Assembly: GCA_900553645.1 (NCBI GenBank)
Contig: USEE01000040.1
Location: 1-8,992 of the forward strand
DNA: 8,992 bases
DNA from: an uncultured Eubacteriales bacterium
GTDB lineage: Bacteria > Bacillota_A > Clostridia > Christensenellales > Aristaeellaceae
Direction: 5' to 3'
The translations under genes were made by a program, and so were the position numbers. Below the pieces are notes generated by a model, which was not told where the DNA came from, ran no database searches, and saw nothing but the letters and a program-made list of their open reading frames with translations. Below are positions 2,535-8,929 of the stretch, piece after piece (within the stretch, counting starts at the first letter, position 1; the number at the start of each line of letters is the position of its first letter).

Positions 2535-2578
2535 CGCGCCCGCCCGAGGCAGTACAGACTATGCTTCGGGCGGGCGCG
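2535..2578. terminator. Long GC-rich hairpin between converging genes
   Basis: A 17-bp stem with one G-U pair (arms 2535-2551 and 2562-2578, 10-nt loop) lies between the phosphodiesterase gene and the minus-strand peptide gene. Read on the minus strand it is followed by a T-rich stretch (GGTTTATTTACAG), fitting a terminator for the peptide gene. On the plus strand there is no T run, so any termination of the Nudix operon here would be weaker. Confidence 0.7.
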
Positions 2579-2597: not shown

Positions 2598-2894
2598 TCA
2601 GTTGCCGTTTTTGTTGATGATATTGAGGCTGATGTTATTTATATTGCCGGTTATGTCATTGGCTAAATTATTGCCGTTGGTGATTATGCTTAGGTCGGCG
2701 GAGTTGTTTCTGATGTTCAGGTCAATGCGGTTGCTATTTGTGTTTAGCTTCATGTCGATGTTGCTGTTGTTAATCAGATTGCGGTTAGTATCAAAGATCA
2801 GATTGCGGTCAGTGTCGAAGATAAGATTGTTGTTGCCGCCGGTCACTTTGGTTAGATCGTCGTCGGGGATGGGATTGACTGGATGCTTGTCCAT
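2598..2894 (-). CDS. Orphan double-glycine-leader peptide with Asn-rich repetitive core
   Basis: 98-residue predicted precursor peptide. Residues 1-20 form a classical double-glycine leader ending DDDLTKVTGG. Hydrophobic residues sit at -12 (I), -7 (L) and -4 (V), an acidic residue at -8, and GG at -2/-1, as in leaders cut by C39 peptidase/ABC exporters. The 78-residue core has 26 Asn, no Cys, and alternates Ile/Leu with Asn, Asp, Ser and Thr. It opens with an 8-residue repeat (RNLIFDTN-like). The pattern suggests stacked beta-strands or a beta-helix rather than a helical bacteriocin. I chose the ATG at 2894 because GAGGT (2902-2906) sits 7 nt upstream; an earlier ATG at 2927 falls about at the transcription start and has no ribosome site. 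No exporter, peptidase or modifying enzyme lies nearby, so export must rely on a system elsewhere. Possible roles are bacteriocin, RiPP (ribosomally made, modified peptide) precursor or secreted structural peptide; none is proven. Confidence 0.75.
   Translation of the reverse strand: MDKHPVNPIPDDDLTKVTGGNNNLIFDTDRNLIFDTNRNLINNSNIDMKLNTNSNRIDLNIRNNSADLSIITNGNNLANDITGNINNISLNIINKNGN
2775..2834. repeat. 24-bp tandem repeat inside the peptide gene
   Basis: Two adjacent 24-bp copies (2775-2798 and 2799-2822) differ at three positions, and a partial third copy starts at 2823. They encode the eight-residue repeat at the start of the peptide core. Two of the changes are silent and one swaps Asp for Asn, so the repeat appears to have grown by duplication while keeping its protein pattern. 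Confidence 0.85.
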
Positions 2895-2937
2895 TGTGCT
2901 GACCTCGCTTTCTTTATCGTACAGCATTGTTTATAAT

Positions 2938-2966
2938 ATTATACGTTGAAATTGAAAAAATGGCAA
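2938..2966 (-). promoter_or_regulatory. Strong promoter of the Asn-rich peptide gene
   Basis: On the minus strand TTGCCA (2961-2966) is 17 bp from a perfect TATAAT (2938-2943), matching 11 of 12 consensus positions. Transcription would begin close to 2930, leaving a leader of about 35 nt with GAGGT before the ATG at 2894. It stands back to back with the toxin promoter at 3010-3038. A small TTCA-N4-TGAA palindrome (2968-2979) in the gap between the two could be an operator, but this is weak. Confidence 0.85.
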
Positions 2967-3009: not shown

Positions 3010-3038
3010 TTGACGCAAGCACCATAATATGCTATAAT
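3010..3038 (+). promoter_or_regulatory. Strong promoter of the type I toxin mRNA
   Basis: TTGACG (3010-3015), a 17-bp spacer and a perfect TATAAT (3033-3038) preceded by TGC, an extended -10. This matches 11 of 12 consensus positions. The predicted start near 3045 coincides with the first base of a 9-bp hairpin in the transcript. Confidence 0.9.
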
Positions 3039-3044
3039 GCAATC

Positions 3045-3066
3045 GAAGCTTTTGAAAAAAGGCTTC
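3045..3066 (+). other. 5'-terminal RNA hairpin of the toxin mRNA
   Basis: Arms 3045-3053 and 3058-3066 form nine consecutive pairs, one of them G-U, closed by a GAAA tetraloop (3054-3057). It falls exactly at the predicted 5' end. Known type I toxin mRNAs often carry such a terminal stem, which protects the RNA from decay, and that role is inferred here. Confidence 0.7.
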
Positions 3067-3102
3067 TACTGGCAGGAAGGAATAAGATGGCGCTTGGCTT
3101 TT

Positions 3103-3139
3103 CCACCTCCTATACCCTACAAAAGTGTAAAGGGGGTGG
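3103..3139 (+). promoter_or_regulatory. Hairpin hiding the toxin ribosome-binding site
   Basis: CCACCTCCT (3103-3111) pairs without a break with AGGGGGTGG (3131-3139), nine pairs with one G-U. The right arm is the Shine-Dalgarno sequence of the toxin, 4 nt before its ATG at 3144. A short inner helix (3118-3120 with 3127-3129) is possible in the loop. Folding would block ribosome entry, as in known type I toxin mRNAs. Confidence 0.75.
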
Positions 3140-3143
3140 TATC

Positions 3144-3245
3144 ATGTCAGACTATGAGATGCTTTCTCTAGTTTGTGTGATTATCTCTCTTGTATTGATT
3201 GCGATCGATCTCGGTCGCAACATCGGTAACTCGAACAAGAAGTAA
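3144..3245 (+). CDS. Small holin-like membrane toxin (type I toxin-antitoxin)
   Basis: 33-residue peptide starting MSDYEMLSLV, with one hydrophobic helix (about residues 7-22) and a basic tail ending NSNKK. This is the pattern of the Firmicutes 'putative holin-like toxin' group and of Fst/TxpA/BsrG-type type I toxins, which insert in the cell membrane. The frame is open upstream to an ATG at 2982, but that lies before the promoter. The ATG at 3144 directly follows AGGGGGTGG. Context supports the call: a strong promoter, a 5' hairpin, a sequestered ribosome site, an intrinsic terminator and a strong promoter converging from the other side. Toxicity itself is inferred. A plain small membrane peptide with other roles cannot be excluded. 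Confidence 0.8.
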   Translation: MSDYEMLSLVCVIISLVLIAIDLGRNIGNSNKK

Positions 3246-3344
3246 AAGTAAAGCCGCCATCCATCGCTAATGGTTGGCGGTTTTTACTTCGGTTCACAAT
3301 GCAACCGGAGGGGAGAAGCCAGCTCAAAAGCGTCATCCCTTCCT
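3240..3344 (-). ncRNA. Predicted antisense RNA antitoxin, converging on the toxin gene
   Basis: A near-consensus minus-strand promoter (3351-3379) starts an RNA near 3344 that runs toward the toxin gene. The toxin terminator hairpin, read on the minus strand, is followed by TTTACTTTTACTT, so the RNA would be about 100 nt and overlap the 3' end of the toxin mRNA by about 45 nt. It has no obvious reading frame with a ribosome site. This convergent layout with a shared terminator matches Fst/RNAII, and the 3' overlap matches TxpA/RatA. Near its 5' end GGAAGGGA can pair with TCCCCTCC at 7 of 8 positions. The RNA ends are predicted; if it reads through the hairpin, the overlap would be longer. Confidence 0.7.
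3250..3285. terminator. Shared bidirectional terminator of toxin and antisense RNA
   Basis: Arms at about 3250-3264 and 3270-3284, with one T-T mismatch, one G-U pair and a 5-nt loop. The plus strand continues TTTTTAC, a proper tail for the toxin mRNA. The minus strand continues TTTACTTTTAC, a weaker tail suited to the antisense RNA. Confidence 0.8.
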
Positions 3345-3350
3345 GCCCTT

Positions 3351-3379
3351 ATTTTATCATATTAAGCTGCTCGTGTCAA
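3351..3379 (-). promoter_or_regulatory. Strong promoter of the antisense RNA
   Basis: On the minus strand a perfect TTGACA (3374-3379), a 17-bp spacer and TAAAAT (3351-3356) match 11 of 12 consensus positions. No minus-strand gene with a ribosome site follows, so its product is best read as an untranslated RNA facing the toxin gene. Confidence 0.85.
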
Positions 3380-4566: not shown

Positions 4567-5532
4567 GTGAATTTATACAACATGCCGTGCCGTCCGATCG
4601 ATATAAAGGACGTGCGCAGGACCGCGTTTGGTCATATGCGGCAAAACGGCAATTACAGGCGCACGGCGCTGATGATCGGGCTTATGCTTGCGCTGATCAA
4701 CGTGCCGGTTATGCTTATGGACTGCCTGACTACGTGGAACGTGGATTTGGGCGCGCTGGACATGAGCGCGCTGGCTATGATAAACACGCGATTGCTTCTA
4801 TTTCAGGCGATGATTGCGGTGTTCATATCGCCCGCGCTGGAGCTGGGCAAGACGCGCTACATGATAAGCGCGATGAAGTCCGATGCAGGCAGTCCCACGG
4901 ATCTCTTCGACGGGCTCAGCCGCGGCTCCTACTTCGTGTCGGTACGCGCGCTGCTGTGGAAGTACCTGCTGATGTACGGCTGGATGATACTGCCCACGAC
5001 CATCGCGGCGCAGGGCATCGCAATGCTGCAATTGGGCGGCGGCGGCGCGGGACTGGCGACGGCGATAATCGGCGGCGCGCTGGCGCTGATGGCGATGGTA
5101 TCGCGGCTGCTGGCGTACTCGCTTCAGTTTTACCTCTTGTCAGACAGTCCCCGGATGGGCGCGATGGTGTCGCTCCGGTTCAGCACGGTGGTCATGCACG
5201 GCCGTATGAACGAGCTGTTTCGGCTGTCGCTGACGATGCTGCCGTTCATGCTGATACCCATGCTGCCCAACGCCGCGTCGCTGGTGTTCGATGTGGACAG
5301 CAACCTTTTCGGTATAGCTATGGCGTTGTGCTCGATACTGCTGGGCGCGGCGTGCTATCCGATGTGGGAGGCGGCTATGGCCGAATACTACCTGCGCGTC
5401 AAGGCGCAGATAGTCAAGCCCCGCGCCCAAAAGGCCGACAACTGGCCCTACGGCCCGGACGAGGACGACGATGATTCTCAGGGCGAATCGGACAGCGATT
5501 CGGATAACGGCTCAAACGGCGATTCGGATTAA
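4567..5532 (+). CDS. DUF975-like multi-pass membrane protein with acidic tail
   Basis: 321-residue membrane protein with about six hydrophobic segments (near 34-52, 76-94, 130-153, 163-189, 218-240 and 246-266). The arrangement resembles DUF975 (YesV-like) proteins: a FDGLSRG turn at 114-120 before a membrane helix, LSDSPRMGAMVSLRFS at 191-206 matching the family's 'DxPxxGxxxALxxS' loop, and a last helix ending in an aromatic EYY motif. The C-terminal 24 residues (298-321) are almost only Asp, Ser, Glu, Asn and Gly, a disordered cytosolic or surface tail. The GTG start is preceded by AGGTGG with a 10-nt gap; an ATG five codons later is a less well-spaced choice. The function of the family is unknown. 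It is followed after 53 bp by a second, longer relative, so the two probably form one operon and perhaps one complex. Confidence 0.75.
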   Translation: MNLYNMPCRPIDIKDVRRTAFGHMRQNGNYRRTALMIGLMLALINVPVMLMDCLTTWNVDLGALDMSALAMINTRLLLFQAMIAVFISPALELGKTRYMISAMKSDAGSPTDLFDGLSRGSYFVSVRALLWKYLLMYGWMILPTTIAAQGIAMLQLGGGGAGLATAIIGGALALMAMVSRLLAYSLQFYLLSDSPRMGAMVSLRFSTVVMHGRMNELFRLSLTMLPFMLIPMLPNAASLVFDVDSNLFGIAMALCSILLGAACYPMWEAAMAEYYLRVKAQIVKPRAQKADNWPYGPDEDDDDSQGESDSDSDNGSNGDSD

Positions 5533-5585
5533 AAGTACACGACACTCACGCCCACTGCGGGCGCAAAAGAAAGGGAAGAAAGGCA

Positions 5586-6707
5586 ATGCTGGACAGAAAG
5601 ACCATCAAGAAGGACGTCAAGGGCATACTGGGCGGTGAAAGCCGCGGGCCGGTATTCCTGGCCACGCTGATTTCGTTTATAATAGTGCTGGTGTACTTCG
5701 GCGCGGTATGGGTGATCGCGCAGTTCTATCCGATAAGCATGAGCGAGCTGGAAGCGATAAGAACTTGGTCGCAGTCGCAGGTACTGATTGCGCCCCAGAC
5801 GGACGCCATGCAGACATATAATGCCGCAATGGCGATAGTCACAAATGCGCTGACCGCATTTGGCCGCACGCTGAGCAGCATCGGCAGCATAAACCTCTGG
5901 GCATGGCTGCTGGAGCTGATACTGCTTCTGCCGCTGGGCATAGGCATACAGAAGTTCATGCTGCGCGTCATCCGCCTGAAAAACCCGGGCGCGTCCACGG
6001 TGCTGCGCGGTTACACTGCGCCCTACTTCTTCCGTTCGATAATAATGCCGTTCTGGAAGCAGATTTGCTATCTGGGCTGGCGCATAATACTGTTTATAAT
6101 CCTGTGCGGCCTTATGGCGGGCACGGCGCTGGCCACGGGACTGAAGGCGCAGGACTTCACGGTGCTCTCCGCGGGCGTGACCGGCGAGGCGGTCAGCGGA
6201 ATATTCTCGGCCGAGTACCTAAACCAATACGGCTGGATATATCCGGTAGTTTGGGGCGCGTGGAGTCTGCTGAGCTGCTGGCTGATGCTGTTTAAGCGCA
6301 TAAGCTACTCGCTGGCCGAGATGGCACTGGCCGAGCGTCCGCAGATCGGCGTGCGCAAGGCGCTCCGGGCCAGCCGCCGCATCGCGCGCCGCAATCACTT
6401 CGCGCTGCTTATGGTGTCGCTCAGCTTTATCGGCTGGTACATACTGGCGTACCTGGCGGTGGTGCTGGTCGTGGCCGTGGGCGTGGGGCTTAACATGCTC
6501 AACATGGGTCAGCTGGGACTGATAATCACGCTGGCGGTTGCGCTGATTGCGCTTTTGCTCATCATGTACCTGCTTGCGCCGTACCGCGTGGGCGTACATG
6601 CGCAGTGCTATGTCAGGCTCAAGCGCGCGGCGCTAGAGGACGGCGTGGTCGTGCGCGAGGACTTCCGCAGCAAGCGCGAACTGCGCGAGATGGAAGAGCA
6701 GCAATAA
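5586..6707 (+). CDS. DUF975-family multi-pass membrane protein
   Basis: 373-residue membrane protein with about six hydrophobic segments (near 22-46, 103-122, 161-182, 216-236, 271-300 and 309-332). The family signature is clear at 239-284: ISYSLAEMALAERPQIGVRK followed by a basic loop (RASRRIARRN) and LSFIGWYIL. The N-terminus (MLDRKTIKKDVKGIL) is the usual amphipathic start of DUF975 proteins, and the C-terminus is charged and helical. AAGGGAAG lies 7 nt before the ATG. The 53-bp gap after the first gene contains only a small CGCCC/GGGCG hairpin (5549-5563) without a T run, so read-through is expected. The operon ends in a strong terminator 17 bp downstream. The role is unknown; a membrane scaffold, transport or stress role would be guesswork. 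Confidence 0.82.
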   Translation: MLDRKTIKKDVKGILGGESRGPVFLATLISFIIVLVYFGAVWVIAQFYPISMSELEAIRTWSQSQVLIAPQTDAMQTYNAAMAIVTNALTAFGRTLSSIGSINLWAWLLELILLLPLGIGIQKFMLRVIRLKNPGASTVLRGYTAPYFFRSIIMPFWKQICYLGWRIILFIILCGLMAGTALATGLKAQDFTVLSAGVTGEAVSGIFSAEYLNQYGWIYPVVWGAWSLLSCWLMLFKRISYSLAEMALAERPQIGVRKALRASRRIARRNHFALLMVSLSFIGWYILAYLAVVLVVAVGVGLNMLNMGQLGLIITLAVALIALLLIMYLLAPYRVGVHAQCYVRLKRAALEDGVVVREDFRSKRELREMEEQQ

Positions 6708-7924: not shown

Positions 7925-8803
7925 TTAGTCCGCGAACACCAGTCCGTCGAATACATCGGCCGCGTTAACCGCCTCGCCATCAATAAGCACATCCATTATG
8001 CTGTTCTCGTCCAGCATCAGATACCCGCCCTCACCATCGTCATTGGGCGCAGTCACAGCCAGATACACATACGAATTGTCGTCGGTCGCCGACAGCACCA
8101 CCGTGTCGCCCTCCTTGAGCGTCATGGTTGCCGTGCCGTAGAGGGACTTCTTCACAGTCAGGTCACGCTTGAGCACCACCGCGGTATTCATCGCATAGCT
8201 GGCGCGCGGCGACTCCACAACGTAGTACTCCTGAGGCAGCATCTCGTAATCGCTGTTGTAGCGCAGCGTGGCCGCGATCACGAAGTCGCTCTCGCGGAAC
8301 CATGTTTCCAGATGATTGCCGCGCACGGTCGCGGTCAGCACAGTGCCGTTTATCTTTATGTCGGTAGGCAGCGCGCCTATGCCGCCGATCACGCGCAGGC
8401 CGTCTTCGTCATAGCGGATTATGTAGGTATAGTCGTCGCTCGACGGGCCGTATTCGCCCACCATAAGATAGGTCACGTCATAATCGCCGCTCAGCTTGCC
8501 CGCGTACAGCGCGTTTATGCCGCTCATCACGTCGATAGACAGCGACTTGTCGCCCACGTTCAGCGTGAACTTGCCGTAGCCGTACTCGTCGCCGTCCAGG
8601 TTGTACGAAATCTCAACCGGATCGCCGTCGGCACTCAGCGCCATCTTGGTGTTGTTGGGAATCTCCACAACGCCGTCCTCGCCGGTCAGTATAGCGTCGT
8701 CCAGCTCGGTAACAGAGACAGCATCCGGTATATCGGTATCGGCCAGCGCAACGGGCGCGGCCAGCAGCGCGGCGGTCAAAAGCGAACAAATCAGCTTCTT
8801 CAT
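7925..8803 (-). CDS. Secreted acidic protein of unknown function
   Basis: 292-residue protein with a clear Sec signal peptide: MKK, a hydrophobic core (about 5-18) and a probable cut after ALA at residue 21. There is no lipobox; the early Cys lacks the small residue needed before it. The mature part is strongly acidic, rich in Asp, Gly, Tyr and beta-strand-like alternation, with no membrane segment and no catalytic motif I recognise. It is probably released or loosely held at the cell surface. I chose the ATG at 8803: GGGAG lies 9 nt upstream, while a GTG two codons earlier would be only 3 nt from it. An alternating GC tract (8851-8859) and AT-rich sequence lie upstream, but no convincing promoter was found. 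It is a single-gene unit with its own terminator. I do not recognise the family. Confidence 0.72.
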   Translation of the reverse strand: MKKLICSLLTAALLAAPVALADTDIPDAVSVTELDDAILTGEDGVVEIPNNTKMALSADGDPVEISYNLDGDEYGYGKFTLNVGDKSLSIDVMSGINALYAGKLSGDYDVTYLMVGEYGPSSDDYTYIIRYDEDGLRVIGGIGALPTDIKINGTVLTATVRGNHLETWFRESDFVIAATLRYNSDYEMLPQEYYVVESPRASYAMNTAVVLKRDLTVKKSLYGTATMTLKEGDTVVLSATDDNSYVYLAVTAPNDDGEGGYLMLDENSIMDVLIDGEAVNAADVFDGLVFAD

Positions 8804-8929
8804 ATTCACACACTCCCAGTAGTAAGTCGGTATTAAAATGCTATAATTAAGCGCGCGCGATTAACTTTACATAGCATTAGACTTGGACAGGATGCTATTC
8901 GTTGCATAAATAATGGCTTGGTATAAAAA

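Follow-up and report, generated by a model that had tools for sequence, protein, structure and literature searches.

A putative double-glycine leader peptide with an Asn-rich, repetitive core in an uncultured Eubacteriales bacterium

A short leader with hydrophobic residues at positions -12, -7 and -4 and a terminal double glycine, followed by a small core, is found in ComC, the class II bacteriocins and the class II microcins, all of which are substrates of ATP-binding cassette (ABC) exporters with a C39 peptidase (PCAT/AMS). According to the available part of PMC10885120, the C39 domains of the peptidase-containing ABC transporters (PCATs) bind the hydrophobic residues at -4, -7 and -12 and cleave after GG, GA or GS, and a Phe at -15 is named in addition for ComA. 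The same arrangement is encountered in the gene that is the subject of this study, which encodes a precursor of 98 amino acids and is located on the minus strand (2598..2894) of an 8,992-nucleotide stretch of DNA from an uncultured Eubacteriales bacterium (assembly GCA_900553645.1, contig USEE01000040.1; the complete stretch is referred to as the window). We tentatively read its product as a small secreted peptide that would be cut after Gly20 and would associate with itself via beta repeats rather than form pores.

The leader comprises residues 1-20 (2835..2894, minus strand) and ends in DDDLTKVTGG, with Ile9 at -12, Leu14 at -7, Val17 at -4 and Gly19-Gly20 ahead of the predicted cleavage site, in agreement with the substrate rule of the C39 domains. 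An earlier note on this DNA had recognised a double-glycine leader and considered every position of the consensus to be matched; the recognition is upheld and the match holds for -12, -7, -4 and the GG pair, whereas at -15 the peptide has Val6 and departs from the Phe specified for ComA. Sequence variation was evaluated for 95 distinct proteins (the window protein and its database relatives P0001-P0104, trimmed to the shared Met; the fragment P0105 has no leader and was excluded). They contain 13 versions of the leader, in which Leu14, Gly19 and Gly20 are constant (95/95, and likewise in all 104 relatives that possess a leader), Ile9 is replaced once by Leu and once by Ser, Val17 is replaced once by Leu, and residue 6 is free to be Val, Ile, Ala or Thr. 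The amino acid composition changes at the GG pair, as Asn accounts for 26 of the 78 core residues and for one of the 20 leader residues (Fisher p 0.011). A stricter version of the leader pattern, which was partly picked after the sequence had been seen, occurs in the window in the frame of the peptide gene, and none of 8728 short open reading frames (ORFs) of Markov-random DNA contains it. Taken by itself the putative leader is suggestive and not decisive; the conserved family raises its weight.

The predicted mature core (2598..2834, minus strand) has 78 residues, a mass of 8.7 kDa and an isoelectric point of 4.85, and it is, as had been noticed before, one-third Asn and free of Cys. The 8-residue repeat that had been described is found at residues 23-38 (2781..2828, minus strand) as two tandem units, NLIFDTDR and NLIFDTNR, the copies of which differ at four nucleotides, three of them silent. 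The last 53 residues (2601..2759, minus strand) can be divided into five degenerate units of 10-11 residues: IDMKLNTNSNR, IDLNIRNNSA, DLSIITNGNN, LANDITGNINN and ISLNIINKNGN, with hydrophobic residues mostly in the first half and an Asn-rich second half. The hydrophobic residues occupy positions 1, 3 and 5 in three of these five units; in the third unit the pattern is offset by one residue, and in the fourth there is no hydrophobic residue at position 3. The alternation of Ile/Leu with polar residues that had been claimed was recovered as a periodic spacing, yet the period is 2.2 (= 11/5) and not 2.0: the p values for the two periods are 0.0005 and 0.81 in the C-terminal 53 residues and 0.003 and 0.71 over the whole core. 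Within the last 53 residues an enrichment at lag 11 was seen when residues were compared by class (p 0.005) and again when they were compared by BLOSUM score, for which lag 11 ranked first among the 24 lags (p 0.0008). When these residues were divided into five units of 10-12, the best division was equalled in 9 of 400 shuffles. Across the whole core lag 11 does not reach significance, as the octad block has a different period. The hydrophobic spacing is of a beta type and fits an arrangement of short beta strands connected by Asn-rich turns.

The protein search recovered 104 relatives at E <=10 from 117 candidates. A profile built on the window protein and P0001-P0103 (104 rows, without the frameshifted P0104) yielded 105 matches among 7969 scored candidates (a capped set of those sharing most words), of which only P0105 was new. 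All 105 relatives share at least 76% identity with the query over the aligned stretch; none of them is named or connected to a Pfam domain, and their source labels are ena or lgn. The earlier note had proposed a search for relatives with the same leader and variable Asn repeats, and this describes the 104 relatives well: the leader is near-invariant and the number of Asn-rich repeats varies, so that the first of the refuting conditions named in that note, a lack of homologues with a conserved leader, does not apply. The lengths of the 95 distinct proteins are 90 (67 proteins), 98 (13), 104 (9), 103 (3), 89 (1) and 95 (1) amino acids, next to a frameshifted protein of 55 that starts a third octad. 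The octad occurs in one copy, in two copies, or with the second copy after a spacer of 5-6 residues, and two proteins have lost 9 residues near the C-terminal end. The core has 69-84 residues in the full-length variants. Nearly all of the insertions and deletions are in frame, a share that has to be read with the under-representation of broken alleles in a protein database in mind. The 71 distinct versions of the 53-residue C-terminal block have 15 sites at which a second residue occurs in at least three blocks, and for 74 of the 105 pairs of these sites all four combinations were found, which is a sign of recombination or of repeated change.

The relatives of the peptide sum to 144 contigs (151 member sequences) and the cluster of the adjacent PHP protein, drawn at 90% identity, to 165 contigs (200 sequences), both being database counts. 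These similar numbers suggest one copy of the peptide gene per genome, in one species. A multi-copy gene family was considered and rated lower on the same numbers, and we do not claim a hypervariable gene, since the PHP cluster itself covers 200 sequences. No relative of the peptide was detected in sister species, where a fast-diverging one could escape detection. The peptide query gave 189 pattern matches in the GTDB 220 contigs and 19 in IMG/VR, and the alignment gave 31 in IMG/VR, none of which was confirmed as a relative. Among phages and plasmids no relative was found at E <=0.01, and PHROGs gave no match. The scans at E <=10, in which the HMMER filters discard most weak matches, connected the 104 members to only four unrelated weak families in Pfam (best E 0.018) and gave only two unrelated weak matches in NCBIfam; no bacteriocin or leader model was among them.

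The peptide gene is a real gene, with a promoter, a ribosome site and a terminator of its own. It runs from the ATG at 2894 to the stop codon at 2598-2600, as had been indicated before without mention of the strand, which is minus, and the strong promoter, the ribosome site and the likely terminator that had been attributed to it were all recovered: a sigma-70-like promoter (TTGCCA-17-TATAAT, 2938..2966, minus strand) with 11 of 12 consensus matches, a ribosome-binding site (GCGAGG, 2903..2908, minus strand) of which the GAGG lies 8 nt ahead of the ATG, and a GC-rich terminator hairpin (2536..2577, minus strand; -37.7 kcal/mol, z -3.8). Promoter-like sites number 5 in the 1.1-kb region that was scanned, against a shuffle mean of 2.0. 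The long inverted repeat at 2536-2577, for which the folding was computed for the minus strand only, probably ends both the peptide gene and the convergent GDPD gene on the plus strand. Many database predictions start at a second in-frame ATG further upstream, at 2927 (MLYDKESEVST...); the start at 2894 is preferred, because the ATG at 2927 would lie only a few bases past the expected start of transcription and would leave no room for a ribosome site. The GC content at third codon positions (GC3) is 0.67, compared to 0.71-0.80 in eight other window genes (a set that excludes a 33-residue ORF with a GC3 of 0.53), and the total GC content is 0.43, compared to 0.55-0.64; the AT-rich codons of Asn and Ile account for part of this difference. 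A non-functional frame that was kept by chance would explain why no relative was found outside one narrow lineage, but it is hard to reconcile with the set of expression signals, the high GC3, the mostly in-frame insertions and deletions and a contig count similar to that of the PHP gene next to it, and we consider it highly improbable.

In the mechanism that we propose, Ile9, Leu14 and Val17 of the leader would be bound by an ABC exporter with a C39 peptidase, the gene of which would lie in another part of the genome. This exporter would cleave the precursor behind Gly20 and release the unmodified 78-residue core from the cell. Outside the cell the core would fold or assemble via its beta repeats, the 8-residue units followed by the five units of ~11 (pairs of ~22), and the product would be an Asn-rich beta-solenoid or an amyloid-like material. 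As each unit would correspond to about one strand, the gain or loss of whole repeats could be tolerated. Judged from the sequence, export and cleavage are probable; the assembly into a beta structure is a possibility that we regard with some doubt, and a role at the cell surface is more doubtful still.

Various results weigh against this proposal. The repeat tests are only moderate once the 24 lags are counted, and the hydrophobic columns of the core vary less than the others (2/24 versus 14/54) to an extent that is not significant (p 0.13). The beta-solenoid that had been suggested in the earlier note is in line, indirectly, with the 11-residue periodicity and with two weak strands of a low-confidence single-sequence AlphaFold model, which span 25-31 and 36-42 of the core and stand 11 residues apart, but no confident fold was obtained: the mean predicted local distance difference test (pLDDT) score was 44.1 with the 104-row alignment and 50.6 for the core alone, both models are too weak to support a fold claim, and the PDB holds no relative of the peptide (best E 2.4). 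The codon choice is not wholly host-like, in that CTA makes up 3 of 9 Leu codons and ATC 9 of 14 Ile codons, against shares of 0.02 and 0.30, respectively, in the eight window genes. Nor is the loose form of the leader motif rare: it was found in 32 of the 8728 random short ORFs, so that ~0.2 would be expected in the 51 short ORFs of the window, where one was seen, and it occurs in 1 of 69 short ORFs of an unrelated locus (L001). Finally, the lower share of variable columns in the leader (1/20) than in the core (16/78) is not significant (p 0.18), and no exporter, immunity protein or modifying enzyme was recognised among the ten window proteins scanned. The last three observations would also suit a small protein that is not exported, carries its GG pair by coincidence and is conserved in a single species because it acts in the cytoplasm or in regulation. 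We regard such a protein as unlikely, given that the key leader positions coincide with the change in composition and that the GG pair and the Leu at -7 are constant in the 95 distinct proteins.

The proposal of a self-associating exported peptide has to be weighed as well against an unmodified class II-type bacteriocin or signalling peptide with an Asn-rich core that would bind a receptor or the cell surface; its exporter and its immunity genes would then be located elsewhere. The leader is of that type, Clostridia are a main source of the 82,806 high-confidence class II precursors from ~280,000 human-gut genomes that are mentioned in the available part of a commentary (PMC12648078), and a strain-level variation with recombination-like shuffling would suit competition. 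In all 83 distinct cores of more than 60 residues, however, the net charge is -3 to 0, a GxxxG motif is absent and the best 19-residue mean hydropathy is 0.67, so that no strongly hydrophobic, transmembrane-like stretch is present, which argues against a pore-forming bacteriocin. In addition, a YGNG motif is absent from the listed relatives, neither an immunity nor a transport gene is adjacent, and no bacteriocin model in Pfam or NCBIfam was matched, which renders the class II-type reading rather unlikely. The same 83 cores are without Cys, which argues against Cys-based chemistry (lanthipeptide, sactipeptide, disulfide).

The genes recognised in the window encode MgtC, NUDIX, GDPD, the 33-residue peptide, PHP, two DUF975-type proteins, DeoR and one protein without a family match above the cut-off. 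The peptide gene was rightly called an orphan as far as the window is concerned, in which no transporter, radical SAM enzyme, methyltransferase or similar modifying enzyme was recognised. The adjoining region (3010-3379) resembles a type I toxin-antitoxin module. It contains, on the plus strand, a promoter (3010-3038), a 33-residue ORF (3144-3245), which may be holin-like/TxpA, and a terminator (3263-3281), and on the minus strand a promoter with 11 of 12 matches (3379-3351), the predicted RNA of which would be antisense to the 3' end of the ORF's mRNA. That mRNA is predicted to fold very well (z -6.1), with the ribosome site paired with CCACCUCC. The 33-residue ORF had no match in Pfam, NCBIfam, PHROGs, plasmids or phages, and its PDB matches were limited to designed helical proteins (E 0.004).

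The PHP protein (P0106, 3468-4271) was found in the GTDB 220 contigs at one remote locus only (L001, 31% identity, Gastranaerophilales), which was taken not to be the host. Among the 120 of its 784 database matches that were listed are further full-length clusters at 84, 80, 79, 73, 72, 70 and 72% identity and below, a partial relative of 166 residues at 92% identity and distant relatives (36-45% identity) with names such as Oscillospiraceae, Clostridia and Eubacteriales, which makes a clostridial host probable. The cluster of 200 sequences reaches a contig of 1.56 Mb; the species seems well sampled publicly, yet the pattern scan gave no close relative in GTDB 220. For the DeoR protein none of three matches in IMG/VR was confirmed. 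The two DUF975-type membrane proteins are encoded adjacently (4567-6707), with the GDPD enzyme 2 kb off; the first has an acidic, Asp/Ser C-terminal tail, and the match of the second lies just below the cut-off and is weakly like the GPDPase membrane domain. A protein of 294 residues (7925-8809) has a start that looks like a signal peptide by eye and no family above the cut-off in Pfam or NCBIfam.

The cores that usually follow a double-glycine leader are cationic or Gly/Ala-rich. Compared to the known C39 PCAT/AMS peptides, the peptide described here is encoded without exporter, immunity protein or partner peptide in the window, and its core is Asn-rich, acidic and repetitive. In the open-licence literature that was searched, neither an Asn-rich double-glycine peptide nor the combination of a double-glycine leader with a beta-solenoid was described; the leader type is known and a new class may be involved. 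The specific form that such a class could take, an unmodified, Asn-laddered beta-repeat peptide that is exported via a double-glycine leader and forms an extracellular amyloid or solenoid layer in a Gram-positive bacterium, its repeats and polar residues being reshuffled between strains, is improbable as it stands. If the peptide is indeed exported and assembles, repeat-built beta material would join the bacteriocins and pheromones as cargo of the C39/PCAT route, and the family would provide a compact natural series of repeat-number variants to study beta-repeat assembly. Even as a mere orphan double-glycine peptide, it is one that the models of Pfam, NCBIfam and PHROGs overlook.

The proteusins resemble the peptide in that their cores have Asn alternating with Ile or Leu/branched residues, and in the polytheonamide-type members the modifying enzymes are encoded alongside. 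By analogy, the core could be a ribosomally synthesised and post-translationally modified peptide (RiPP), for instance with epimerised or methylated Asn/Ile repeats, served by enzymes in trans. The available part of PMC10885120 states that PCATs serve several RiPP classes and that the leader of polytheonamides and their kin also ends in a GG-type motif, yet that leader exceeds 70 residues and is connected to a C1A protease, against 20 residues here. With so short a leader, no modifying enzyme in the window, no Cys, and no match in Pfam or NCBIfam to a leader family, including the long nitrile-hydratase/Nif11-type leaders, a modified peptide of the polytheonamide kind, as the earlier note had put forward, is not supported, and a RiPP in general is very unlikely.

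For the self-associating peptide that we favour, other systems offer parallels. The curli subunit CsgA is built from short beta-strand repeats of ~22 residues that are rich in polar residues, in its case in a Gln/Gly/Ser pattern. It is secreted otherwise, through the CsgG pore (PMC7582709, available part), and no curli family was found among the Pfam matches of the window proteins and the 104 members. Microcin E492 has a double-glycine leader. It is described in the available part of PMC7582709 as a bacteriocin that turns into amyloid and, by this description rather than by a comparison of sequences, provides the precedent for an amyloid-forming bacteriocin.
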